Assembly: GCA_017543285.1 (NCBI GenBank)
Contig: JAFYGK010000028.1
Location: forward strand, 1 to 64,000
Reading direction: 5' to 3'
Length of the DNA stretch: 64,000 nt
Source: Clostridia bacterium
GTDB lineage: Bacteria; Bacillota; Clostridia; Oscillospirales; Acutalibacteraceae
Shown here: one piece after another, positions 21,005 through 45,506 of the stretch
How positions within the stretch are numbered: the first letter of the stretch is position 1
Layout: every line of letters starts with the position of its first letter
Translations under genes and position numbers: made by a program
Notes under the pieces: generated by a model
What the model saw: only the letters and a program-made list of their open reading frames with translations
The model's database searches: none
What the model was told of the DNA's origin: nothing

Positions 21005-21191
21005 GCAAAATCAAAAGCCCGGGTGGCACGATTCCCGAGCTTTGACCAAGGCAGCTCTTACTGCCTCTGTGAGAAGGAAGGTTTGTTGAAAAAAGAAGAA
21101 AACATTATATCAAATGAGAAGAAATCTGATTAAAATGAAACGAAATATTTAAAAGGAAGGAGAAGAAAGAATATTTTCTTTTCGTTTCATT
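21005..21191 (-). ncRNA. Candidate small RNA, copy A
   Basis: A minus-strand transcript of ~187 bases is predicted between the promoter at 21198-21226 and a terminator hairpin at 21014-21043. Reading 5' to 3': a 12-bp 5' hairpin (AATGAAACGAAA/TTTCGTTTCATT) with a long C/T-rich loop containing CTCCTTCC; a pyrimidine-rich unpaired stretch with ACCTTCCTTCTCACA; a small stem AGGCAG/CTGCCT; GGTC; and the terminator AAAGCTCGGG/CCCGGGCTTT with GTGCCA in the loop, then GATTTT. Copy B at 26656-26813 shares the 3' half, promoter and architecture while the small stem changes by compensating substitutions. No conserved reading frame is shared. No gene follows on the minus strand. It may match an existing Rfam family. 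Confidence 0.75.
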
Positions 21192-21197
21192 GGCTAT

Positions 21198-21226
21198 ATT
21201 ATAGCATAGGTTTTGTGCAATGTAAA
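21198..21226 (-). promoter_or_regulatory. Sigma-A promoter of small RNA copy A
   Basis: On the minus strand TTTACA (21221-21226) and TATAAT (21198-21203) are 17 bases apart. The bases around the -35 (ATCTATTTACATTGCACAAA) are identical to those of copy B, more than a promoter alone requires. Confidence 0.85.
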
Positions 21227-21432
21227 TAGATAAAACATAGATTATTTGGCTGTAATGACTATGAATTTTGTAGAAACTGTAATAATGCACAAAAAATAGG
21301 CATGAGTTTCTATCTTTGACGCGTCCGATAAGTCCATTACGATCCGTCTGGCGAATTTGTCGACCCTGTAAATGTCATAAACCGGAAGATTGTACAATAA
21401 ATATGAACAAGAGCTGTATGGAGGGATGGCCA

Positions 21433-25141: not shown

Positions 25142-26191
25142 TTATTTATAAAAAACCTGAATAAATTTTTCCGGATACTTTGAATAAAGGCTTTCGCCCA
25201 GGCGGTCTGCAATATCGATAAGCATTCTTTCATGCTCGCAGTGAAAAGGGGAGATCCTGTCGATCTGTCCCGTTTCGATAAGATTTGTGCAGCCGCAGAA
25301 ATTAAGACATCTGTCAGACAGTGCGCAGCCCTCGCACTCCTTCGGGGATTTGTGAAGGATCAGCGATGAGACTCTGTCAGCAAAGAATCCTTTTTCGGCT
25401 GTTCCTATGATATATTCGTCGCGGTCGACAAACTGTATGCACGGATAGATGTTTCCCTCAGGATTTACCGAGCACTGTGACAGATCGGAATGGCAGCGTG
25501 TTACGTTTGAAATGCCGCCTCTGATATGGGTCAGTATTTTTGATTCAAGCTCGGGAAAACCGAATCTGACATCAGTGCCGAACCTGTCGGCATACATGGA
25601 TGATACCTTTTCATATCCGATTCTCAGACGACGGAGCTTTTCGTCGTCCCATGCCGCAAATTTACCGTAGGCGGGAGTAGTTATTACTGTTTTGAAACCT
25701 AGATCGAGCAGGTACAAAACGGAATCATAAAACAGGTCGACGTTTTCGGGTGAAATGACAGTGCGCGACGCGGCCTTGGGCTGATATTCGAGCACAAGCC
25801 TTGCTGCGTTCGAAACCGCTTCGAGACTGTCGCTGCCGTCCGGCATTTTTCTGCTTTTCTGCATAAGACCGTCAATGGAAAGGCCTATGCCTACATTATT
25901 ATCCGAGAGATATTTTACGGTCTCCTCGTTGAGCAGAAGACCGTTCGTGTTCATTTTGAAACTGAACCGATGATCAAGCGTTTTACAGTAATCTATGATC
26001 TGACGAATCAGAGAAAACTCCAGCATCGGCTCTCCGCCGTAAAAACAAAATCCGGTGCGGAGACTGTTTTTAACCGAAAGATCTATGAGGCGCTTAACCG
26101 TGTCAAGGCTCATACGGCGTCCGTTTCTCGTCTGCGTGCAGTATTCACATCTCAGGTTGCACATATCGGTAAGGTGCAGCGTAAAATTCAT
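25142..26191 (-). CDS. Radical SAM/SPASM peptide-modifying enzyme
   Basis: The 349-residue protein has the radical SAM CX3CX2C cluster motif in CNLRCEYC (C11, C15, C18), the GGEPMLE motif near residue 58 for SAM binding, and a C-terminal SPASM region: CSVNPEGNIYPC near 236 and a CX2C-rich CEGCALSDRCLNFCGC block near 279, enough for two auxiliary [4Fe-4S] clusters. SPASM enzymes of this size typically modify ribosomal peptides or activate sulfatases; sulfatase maturases share the layout but are longer, and no sulfatase is nearby. GGAGG lies 7 bases before the ATG at 26191. The adjacent repeat-bearing small gene, 19 bases upstream, is the likely substrate. Confidence 0.85.
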   Translation of the reverse strand: MNFTLHLTDMCNLRCEYCTQTRNGRRMSLDTVKRLIDLSVKNSLRTGFCFYGGEPMLEFSLIRQIIDYCKTLDHRFSFKMNTNGLLLNEETVKYLSDNNVGIGLSIDGLMQKSRKMPDGSDSLEAVSNAARLVLEYQPKAASRTVISPENVDLFYDSVLYLLDLGFKTVITTPAYGKFAAWDDEKLRRLRIGYEKVSSMYADRFGTDVRFGFPELESKILTHIRGGISNVTRCHSDLSQCSVNPEGNIYPCIQFVDRDEYIIGTAEKGFFADRVSSLILHKSPKECEGCALSDRCLNFCGCTNLIETGQIDRISPFHCEHERMLIDIADRLGESLYSKYPEKFIQVFYK

Positions 26192-26210
26192 TGAGGCGCC
26201 TCCGCGGAAA

Positions 26211-26567
26211 TCATTCGGCCGCAGGAGAACCGACTCCCGCAAAATCCGACGAAGAACCGTTTGCCTCGAAATCGCAGTCAGGCTCGGAATAGGCGGTTTC
26301 ACCCTCCAGCCGAAGGTCGTTGTCGCCGCCGTCCGGCTGAGAATAAGGCACATCGCCCATGAGTTCGACATCGCCGCCGTCCGGCTGAGAATAAGGCACT
26401 GCTCCTTCGATCACGACTTCTGATCCGGATGGATTTCGATTTAAATTGTAAATTATGTTTTTTGCAATATTGCAGCTTGTCATGCTTGCTGCGGCGACGG
26501 CAACGGCAGAGGCGACCGCAACGGGATAGGCGATTTTTTTGAGTTTTCTTACAGGTTCGATTTTCAT
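26211..26567 (-). CDS. Candidate peptide precursor with three YS[QE]PD repeats
   Basis: The 118-residue protein has a basic N-terminus (KIEPVRKLKKIAY), a hydrophobic Ala/Val segment ending in MTSC at residues 29-32 (a possible lipobox, lipidated Cys32), then three 16-residue units: 51-66 and 67-82 back to back, and 85-100. Each reads hydrophobic-x-hydrophobic-x-G-x-x-x-Y-S-[Q/E]-P-D. The third has a cysteine after PD. The acidic, Ser/Gly-rich end resembles the core of a modified peptide. It is co-directional with and 19 bases before the radical SAM/SPASM gene. GGAAG lies 7 bases before the ATG at 26567. Interpretation as a RiPP-like precursor or modified lipoprotein is inference. Confidence 0.7.
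   Translation of the reverse strand: MKIEPVRKLKKIAYPVAVASAVAVAAASMTSCNIAKNIIYNLNRNPSGSEVVIEGAVPYSQPDGGDVELMGDVPYSQPDGGDNDLRLEGETAYSEPDCDFEANGSSSDFAGVGSPAAE
26323..26399. repeat. Exact 29-bp direct repeat inside the precursor gene
   Basis: The segments 26323-26351 and 26371-26399 are identical over 29 bases, spaced 48 bases apart (16 codons), and encode the repeated PYSQPDGGD units. Exact nucleotide identity implies recent duplication or ongoing repeat-number change. Confidence 0.9.
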
Positions 26568-26626
26568 TTCGGCACTTCCTTCCGCTGATTTCATTTTACC
26601 AAGGGCTTCTTTACATATACACTTAC

Positions 26627-26655
26627 ATTATTGCATTTAGCGGATAAAATGTCAA
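26627..26655 (-). promoter_or_regulatory. Sigma-A promoter of the precursor/radical SAM pair
   Basis: On the minus strand TTGACA (26650-26655) and AATAAT (26627-26632) are 17 bases apart, starting right where small RNA copy B ends. The peptide locus therefore has its own promoter. Confidence 0.75.
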
Positions 26656-26813
26656 TAAAAAATCAAAAGCCCGGGTTGGCACTAACCCGAGCTTTGACCC
26701 TTGACAGCAATTACTGTCAATGTGAGAAGGAAGGTCTTGTAAAAGAAAAGGAGAAAACATATATTAAAGAAGTAGAATTCATTTAATCGGAAAAGAGGTT
26801 ATCTTTCTTTTCT
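26656..26813 (-). ncRNA. Candidate small RNA, copy B
   Basis: A minus-strand transcript of ~158 bases is predicted. Its order is: stem GAAAAGA/TCTTTTC; stem ATTAAA/TTTAAT; a long pyrimidine-rich unpaired stretch with TTTTCTCCTTTTC and ACCTTCCTTCTCACA; stem TTGACAG/CTGTCAA; GGGTC; and terminator AAAGCTCGGGTT/AACCCGGGCTTT (26666-26695) followed by TGATTTTTTATT. It shares the promoter, CCTTCCTTCTCACA box, terminator core and GTGCCA loop with copy A at 21005-21191. The middle stem differs in sequence but still pairs. It sits directly upstream of the precursor gene but terminates before that gene's promoter. Confidence 0.75.
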
Positions 26814-26819
26814 GTTAAA

Positions 26820-26848
26820 ATTATAACATATGCTTTGTGCAATGTAAA
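26820..26848 (-). promoter_or_regulatory. Sigma-A promoter of small RNA copy B
   Basis: On the minus strand TTTACA (26843-26848) and TATAAT (26820-26825) are 17 bases apart, with the same ATCTATTTACATTGCACAAA context as copy A. Similarity also continues patchily upstream (for example a TTTTTTRTGCA-like stretch). The rest of the gap up to metF holds nothing else recognised. Confidence 0.85.
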
Positions 26849-26947
26849 TAGATAAAACATGGATTTTTTGACGTTTTCGCTCGATTAATTTGTTTACAAT
26901 GTATATTGTGCATAAAAAATGTGCTAAAGTTTTTACAGTAAAACCCC

Positions 26948-45240: not shown

Positions 45241-45246
45241 AGCTTC

Positions 45247-45506
45247 ACAGCAATGACGGAGACAGGAGCGGTGAATACGTTTCAGAGAGTCGGCGGCCGG
45301 TGCAAGCCGATACGGATAACCGTAAACCCATCACTCCCGAGCATCGACCCGAAAGGCTTTGCCCAGTAGACGTCGGCGCGTGACTGCGTTATCGGTCGGG
45401 GGCTTTATCTGAGCCTTATGAGAGGATATGCTTTGCATATCAATATGGGTGGTACCGCGGGTATTGATTTTTCAGCTCGTCCCATTAATTTGGGACGAGC
45501 TTTTTG
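45247..45506 (+). promoter_or_regulatory. T-box riboswitch leader
   Basis: A ~260-base leader follows the promoter. Stem I carries the AGAGAG and GGTGCAAGCC elements typical of its AG bulge and apical region. TGGGTGGTACCGCGGG at 45446-45461 is the conserved T-box sequence, followed by terminator AGCTCGTCCCA/TGGGACGAGCT and T5 (45474-45506). Uncharged tRNA would bind the specifier loop and the T-box, forming the antiterminator. The putative specifier, read from the GGAG/CTCC-flanked loop, is ATC (isoleucine), but this assignment is tentative. It controls the XRE-cupin and acyl-CoA synthetase genes. Confidence 0.93.

Follow-up and report, generated by a model that had tools for sequence, protein, structure and literature searches.

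Copies A and B of a small RNA were located in the window, the whole 64,000-nucleotide stretch of DNA that was analysed. A third copy (C) was found elsewhere in the same genome and a fourth (D) in a second species of the genus. A–D are best read as a family of small RNAs in which a stem covaries and C/U-rich boxes are left unpaired, and this family is previously undescribed. A second RNA, complementary to the boxes, is predicted beside C and D. At the level of sequence, the copies, their structure and covariation, and the complementarity and linkage of the two RNAs are established. The preferred interpretation, with a probability of roughly 0.55, is that of a multicopy C/U-rich sRNA that would mask Shine-Dalgarno regions and be restrained by a linked anti-sRNA, or sponge; the expression, targets and direction of control that it assumes are inferred. 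The preliminary description of this DNA had recognised an sRNA family with a covarying stem, which stands, and had overlooked both copy C and the partner RNA complementary to the boxes.

Copies A and B in the window

Copy A had been described as a minus-strand promoter followed by a stretch of ~187 bases ending in a hairpin, with a second copy in the same promoter context. Both promoters were found as described, with TTTACA and TATAAT separated by 17 nt and 11 of 12 positions matching the consensus, and the terminator hairpin is present at the end of a predicted sRNA of about 190 nt in copy A (Table 1). The elements said to be kept between the two copies, the CCTTCCTTCTCACA box, the terminator core GGTCAAAGCTCGGG...CCCGGGCTTTTGATTTT and the GTGCCA loop, were all verified, as was the change in the middle stem from AGGCAG/CTGCCT in A to TTGACAG/CTGTCAA in B. 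A and B have the promoter, the sequence upstream of it, the box and the terminator core in common, while their 5' domains have diverged, both in sequence and in length.

The promoter identity continues past the -35 box into TTTTATCTATTTACATTGCACAAA upstream, and when the 23-mer TTTATCTATTTACATTGCACAAA was searched with up to 3 mismatches the genome matches were A, B and C only, with 0 control matches. The conservation well upstream of -35 (ATGTTTTATCTATTTACATTGCACAAA) covers positions 21212-21240 and 26834-26860 of the minus strand, and suggests a shared transcription-factor site or an UP element. Directly after copy B (25142-26594, minus strand) the window encodes a short, repeat-containing (VPYSQPDGGD) lipoprotein-like peptide and then a radical SAM/SPASM protein, which is nearest to PapB-type ranthipeptide maturases at a score below the curated cut-off; the two are possibly an unrecognised radical-SAM peptide system. 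A T-box leader (RF00230, 115 bits) was found at 45244-45487 on the plus strand.

Table 1. Positions of the sRNA copies, their parts and the partner RNAs; positions without a prefix are those of the window.
Feature	Position	Strand	Basis or remark
Copy A promoter: -35 TTTACA, 17-nt spacer, -10 TATAAT; conserved extension upstream to about 21240	21198-21226	-	motif and four-copy alignment
Copy A predicted sRNA, about 190 nt	21007-21197	-	5' end inferred from -10 box
Copy A 5' domain: C/U tracts TTCTTTCTTCTCCTTCCTTTT, TTTCTTCTC, TTTTCTTCTTTTTTC and 5' hairpin	21082-21171	-	tract statistics, fold
Copy A box 1 CCTTCCTTCTCACA, unpaired in predicted fold	21068-21081	-	invariant in 4/4 copies
Copy A middle stem-loop AGGCAG-TAAGAG-CTGCCT	21049-21066	-	pairing conserved, sequence variable
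Copy A box 2 (GGTCAAAGC) and terminator hairpin, GTGCCA loop at 21029-21024	21009-21047	-	
Copy B promoter TTTACA-17-TATAAT	26820-26848	-	
Copy B predicted sRNA, about 164 nt	26655-26819	-	start assumed just after -10 box
Copy B box 1 CCTTCCTTCTCACA	26721-26734	-	
Copy B middle stem-loop TTGACAG-TAATTG-CTGTCAA	26701-26720	-	
Copy B box 2 and terminator, GTGCCA loop at 26682-26677	26661-26699	-	
Copy C	G000:C35:12791-12897	+	14-base box search and DNA search, whole genome; own promoter
Copy D	G001:C38:2568-2637	-	contig CALWVB010000038.1
C partner	L013 4300-4267	-	15-pair terminator
D partner	L014 2222-2247	+	11-pair terminator

Structure and distribution of the family

The family had been taken to have two members, which is refuted by copies C and D. 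The genome, that of a gut-type Clostridia, therefore carries at least three copies of the sRNA (A, B and C), and copy D belongs to an uncultured Clostridia MAG representing the second species of the genus. The structure-aware search of related genomes that had been proposed was run, and A–D were the only credible members. A covariance model built from A–D gave nothing credible outside the genus among 300 family genomes, and a three-part pattern search of 398 family genomes returned A–D only. A scan of a collection of 84,980 species, which may lack the genome that the window comes from, returned D and three apparent chance matches, and a scan of a viral collection returned one apparent chance match. 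The best covariance match outside the genus (G005, E 3.6e-6) was rejected, as it falls within a permease-like coding gene and does not contain the box; the remaining matches outside the genus were mostly generic terminators. As far as can be seen from two genomes of the genus, the family is restricted to it. For the sRNA copies, an Rfam search gave only chance-level matches at gathering and E-value thresholds.

The covarying stem holds on the four copies, although with n = 4 this is supportive and not overwhelming. Over A–D, 98.6% of the cells in the two helices are paired, and sliding the structure by one column of the alignment reduces pairing to 61% or less. Two-sided changes were seen in 6 of the 18 pairs, compared to a mean of 1.7 in shuffled alignments (reached by 1/500 shuffles), and the covariation score was 0.389 compared to 0.209, with none of the 500 shuffles reaching the observed value. 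In addition to the stems of A and B given above, the middle stem reads GGCAG/CTGCC in C and ACAGTA/TACTGT in D, and the terminator stem CGGG/CCCG becomes CAGG/CCTG in copy C. Box 1 and the GTGCC loop of the terminator are invariant in all four copies; the promoter, boxes and terminator are conserved throughout and the 5' domains have drifted.

In the predicted folds box 1 is wholly unpaired in A and C, and its first bases are partly engaged in B and D. The C/U-tract content of A, B, C and D was reached by 0, 12, 0 and 32 of 1000 shuffles, respectively, and that of copy A was matched by one of 6390 window segments. By fold and tract statistics the copies thus have the accessible C/U-rich boxes of a C/U-rich Gram-positive sRNA, and they are non-coding with a promoter and terminator of their own, as such an sRNA would be. 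The terminators of A and D were seen in the sequence and fold, and are absent from the output of the terminator scan, which has a loop limit of 8.

The module could also attenuate transcription of the genes downstream or serve as their leader, in which case the partner or some other factor would be the antiterminator. Copies B and C precede genes in the same direction, and box 2 is part of the 5' arm of the terminator, so that pairing could open it. However, the gene after A and the one after D run towards the copy, which argues that the element is not an mRNA leader, and the module's own promoter is kept in 4/4 copies, making this explanation quite improbable.

When Shine-Dalgarno targets of box 1 were sought, no outlier was found among 55 start regions of the window (best -14.9 kcal/mol), and genome matches to box 1 outside the sRNAs were about as frequent as control matches. 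The best candidate genome-wide, with -14.6 kcal/mol against box 1, was the leader of an FGGY-type sugar kinase (G000:C23:19371), in which the ribosome-binding region (L007, about 1480-1520) pairs with 12 of the 14 box 1 bases. Its site, TTTGAGAAAGAAGG, overlaps the ribosome site; the candidate is a weak one and was set aside, being not statistically special and having no ortholog in the second genome.

A predicted complementary RNA beside copies C and D

Exact matches to the box CCTTCTCACA number six in the genome and three in G001. In each of the two genomes, one match outside the sRNAs is found on the strand of the C or D box, at a distance of 500–650 nt from it. Because this box shares a strand with the sRNA box, an RNA transcribed from the opposite strand would be complementary to the sRNA. 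A second predicted terminator-ended RNA does adjoin C and D, 340–430 nt upstream on the opposite strand and divergent, and both partner terminators are strong and point away from the sRNA. The presumed start of the partner is marked by a -10-like sequence, GTATTATAAT, conserved in both species; no -35 box passed the scan at C or D, and the promoter is weak by consensus. In the partner, UGUGAGAAGG follows the complement of GGUCAA(AGC), so that the sequence just before the terminator is GGCUUUGGCC-GU-UGUGAGAAGG in the C partner and UUGACCA-UUU-UGUGAGAAGG in the D partner. The partner boxes are therefore the complement of box 2 and box 1 in antisense order with the middle stem removed. A possible third match, noted by eye, pairs the GUGCC(A) loop of the sRNA terminator with GGCAC (D partner) or UGGCA (C partner). 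No partner was found beside A or B.

The joined-box complementarity was -35.0 kcal/mol for the C partner, compared to a mean of -12.4 (sd 2.6) for window segments, and -28.5 kcal/mol for the D partner, compared to -11.7 (sd 2.4). Cofolding of C with its partner gave a gain of -19.3 against -5.1 (sd 2.8) for shuffled partners (0/60), while D with its partner gave -17.4 against -8.2 (sd 3.3; 1/60); when A and B were cofolded with the C partner the gain was reached by 0/60 shuffles each. In both species the joint structure is predicted to form through boxes 1 and 2, with the middle stem looped out. The plain duplex energy of full-length D and its partner was not unusual (130/300 shuffles). The partner is complementary to the functional boxes of the sRNA beyond chance, as is expected of a RosA-like sponge, and the odds of such a match, 16 bases in two parts, arising by chance within 700 nt of the sRNA were estimated by arithmetic at a few in a million per genome.

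The arrangement of sRNA and partner is kept even though the neighbouring protein genes differ and the spacer has drifted. Copy C neighbours Nif3-like and HAD-hydrolase genes, and copy D has TrkA-type/lipoprotein genes on one side and miaB/mutS on the other, the names being read from the proteins and not from a family search. Between C and D the identity is 53% in the spacer and 43% in the 5' part of the partner, and 76% in the partner boxes, 84% in the partner -10 and 80% in the 3' module of the sRNA; over the functional parts of the two RNAs it is 74–84%, compared to 53% for the spacer, in a comparison of two loci only that have common ancestry. At the DNA level the boxes beside C and D form direct repeats with the same-strand boxes of the sRNA, and could be what is left of a decayed partial duplicate of the sRNA with no transcript of its own. 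This is unlikely, since in both species the boxes stand immediately before a good terminator pointing the opposite way and have a conserved -10, and they have been preserved while the surroundings drifted to about 50%, which is unexpected of a decaying duplicate.

Two facing RNAs that pair through common direct repeats also follow the logic of par (PMC4147584), raising the case of a par/Fst-like type I toxin-antitoxin locus whose complementarity would come from opposite transcription of the repeats. However, no conserved reading frame that might encode a toxin peptide was found in the six RNAs (A–D and the two partners), where the longest frames are of about 12–21 codons and differ, and the sRNA and partner genes are divergent and do not overlap at their 3' ends. 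The par/Fst reading is largely refuted, and its probability is very small.

With the sRNA family taken as real, the partner itself may be the main regulator or a target, acting on the sRNAs and on mRNAs with CUUCUCACA boxes. A lipoprotein leader (G000:C2:24842; L004 1500-1610) is the example, containing CTTTCTCACA twice and CCTTCTCACA once, plus CAACGCCAAAGC, and its energy with the box region of the C partner, -35.6 kcal/mol, beats all 1824 window segments (best -31.3). However, this leader is of low complexity and C/U-rich, which raises the number of chance matches; the D partner box reaches just -18.3 kcal/mol with it, and the box-bearing leader was found in one genome only. Such a role for the partner has a low probability.

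Proposed mechanism and comparison with known systems

Under the preferred interpretation of a Shine-Dalgarno-masking sRNA and its sponge, A, B and C would be three copies of a stand-alone trans-acting sRNA of about 150–190 nt, and D the copy of the second species. The predicted sRNA consists of a C/U-rich 5' half and a 3' module containing box 1 (CCUUCCUUCUCACA), the covarying stem-loop, box 2 (GGUCAA) and the GUGCC-loop terminator. The C/U boxes would most likely mask the Shine-Dalgarno regions of mRNAs. The partner beside C and D looks like a built-in off-switch, which would pair with the two boxes at once, leaving the middle stem looped out as a three-way junction. Looping out of the stem would explain why its pairing is kept without its sequence, and since boxes 1 and 2 are common to A, B and C, the three copies could be titrated by the single partner beside C. 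It is tentatively proposed that a compact sRNA/anti-sRNA unit arose from opposite transcription of repeated boxes, was kept through the change of neighbourhood, acts via a stem-looping three-way junction and also controls the unlinked copies A and B. If this is true, such a linked pair, with its further unlinked sRNA copies, would offer a simple system in which to study the origin of sponges and the control of several sRNAs by one sponge. The family points to post-transcriptional control in uncultured Clostridia, for which little of this kind has, to our knowledge, been described.

Low-GC Gram-positive sRNAs with C-rich single-stranded boxes, such as RoxS, RsaE, FsrA and LhrC, commonly block Shine-Dalgarno regions (PMC8216469, PMC4132741), and by analogy A–D most likely belong with them, with the partner as their anti-sRNA. 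Gram-positive bacteria have few known sRNA sponges. RosA from Bacillus subtilis, presented in 2021 as the first confirmed, and RsaI from Staphylococcus are stand-alone sponges that pair with the C-rich boxes of several sRNAs (PMC8216469). The A–D family and its putative sponge resemble RoxS/RsaE and FsrA with RosA/RsaI in the C-rich single-stranded boxes of an sRNA in a low-GC Gram-positive and in a stand-alone sponge RNA, here a putative one, for several sRNAs (PMC8216469). Unlike RoxS/RsaE, A–D do not match an Rfam covariance model at the gathering score. Unlike RosA/RsaI, the partner is divergent beside one sRNA copy and is predicted to pair via boxes that flank a looped-out stem, and it has UGUGAGAAGG where RosA and RsaI have G-rich regions.

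Another comparable system is LhrC from Listeria, which is also a multicopy sRNA with several redundant C/U-rich sites, located in a loop, a single-stranded stretch and the terminator (PMC4132741). LhrC has five copies and UCCC/CUCCC motifs, while the genome studied here has three copies with the invariant box CCUUCCUUCUCACA, a terminator loop that is GUGCC and not UCCC, and a complementary partner, so that C/U-rich sites are not found in both loops and the single strand as they are in LhrC. With par (Fst) of pAD1 the system has in common two RNAs that pair through direct repeats (PMC4147584), but it encodes no peptide, its genes are divergent with separate terminators, and one of its RNAs has extra unlinked copies.
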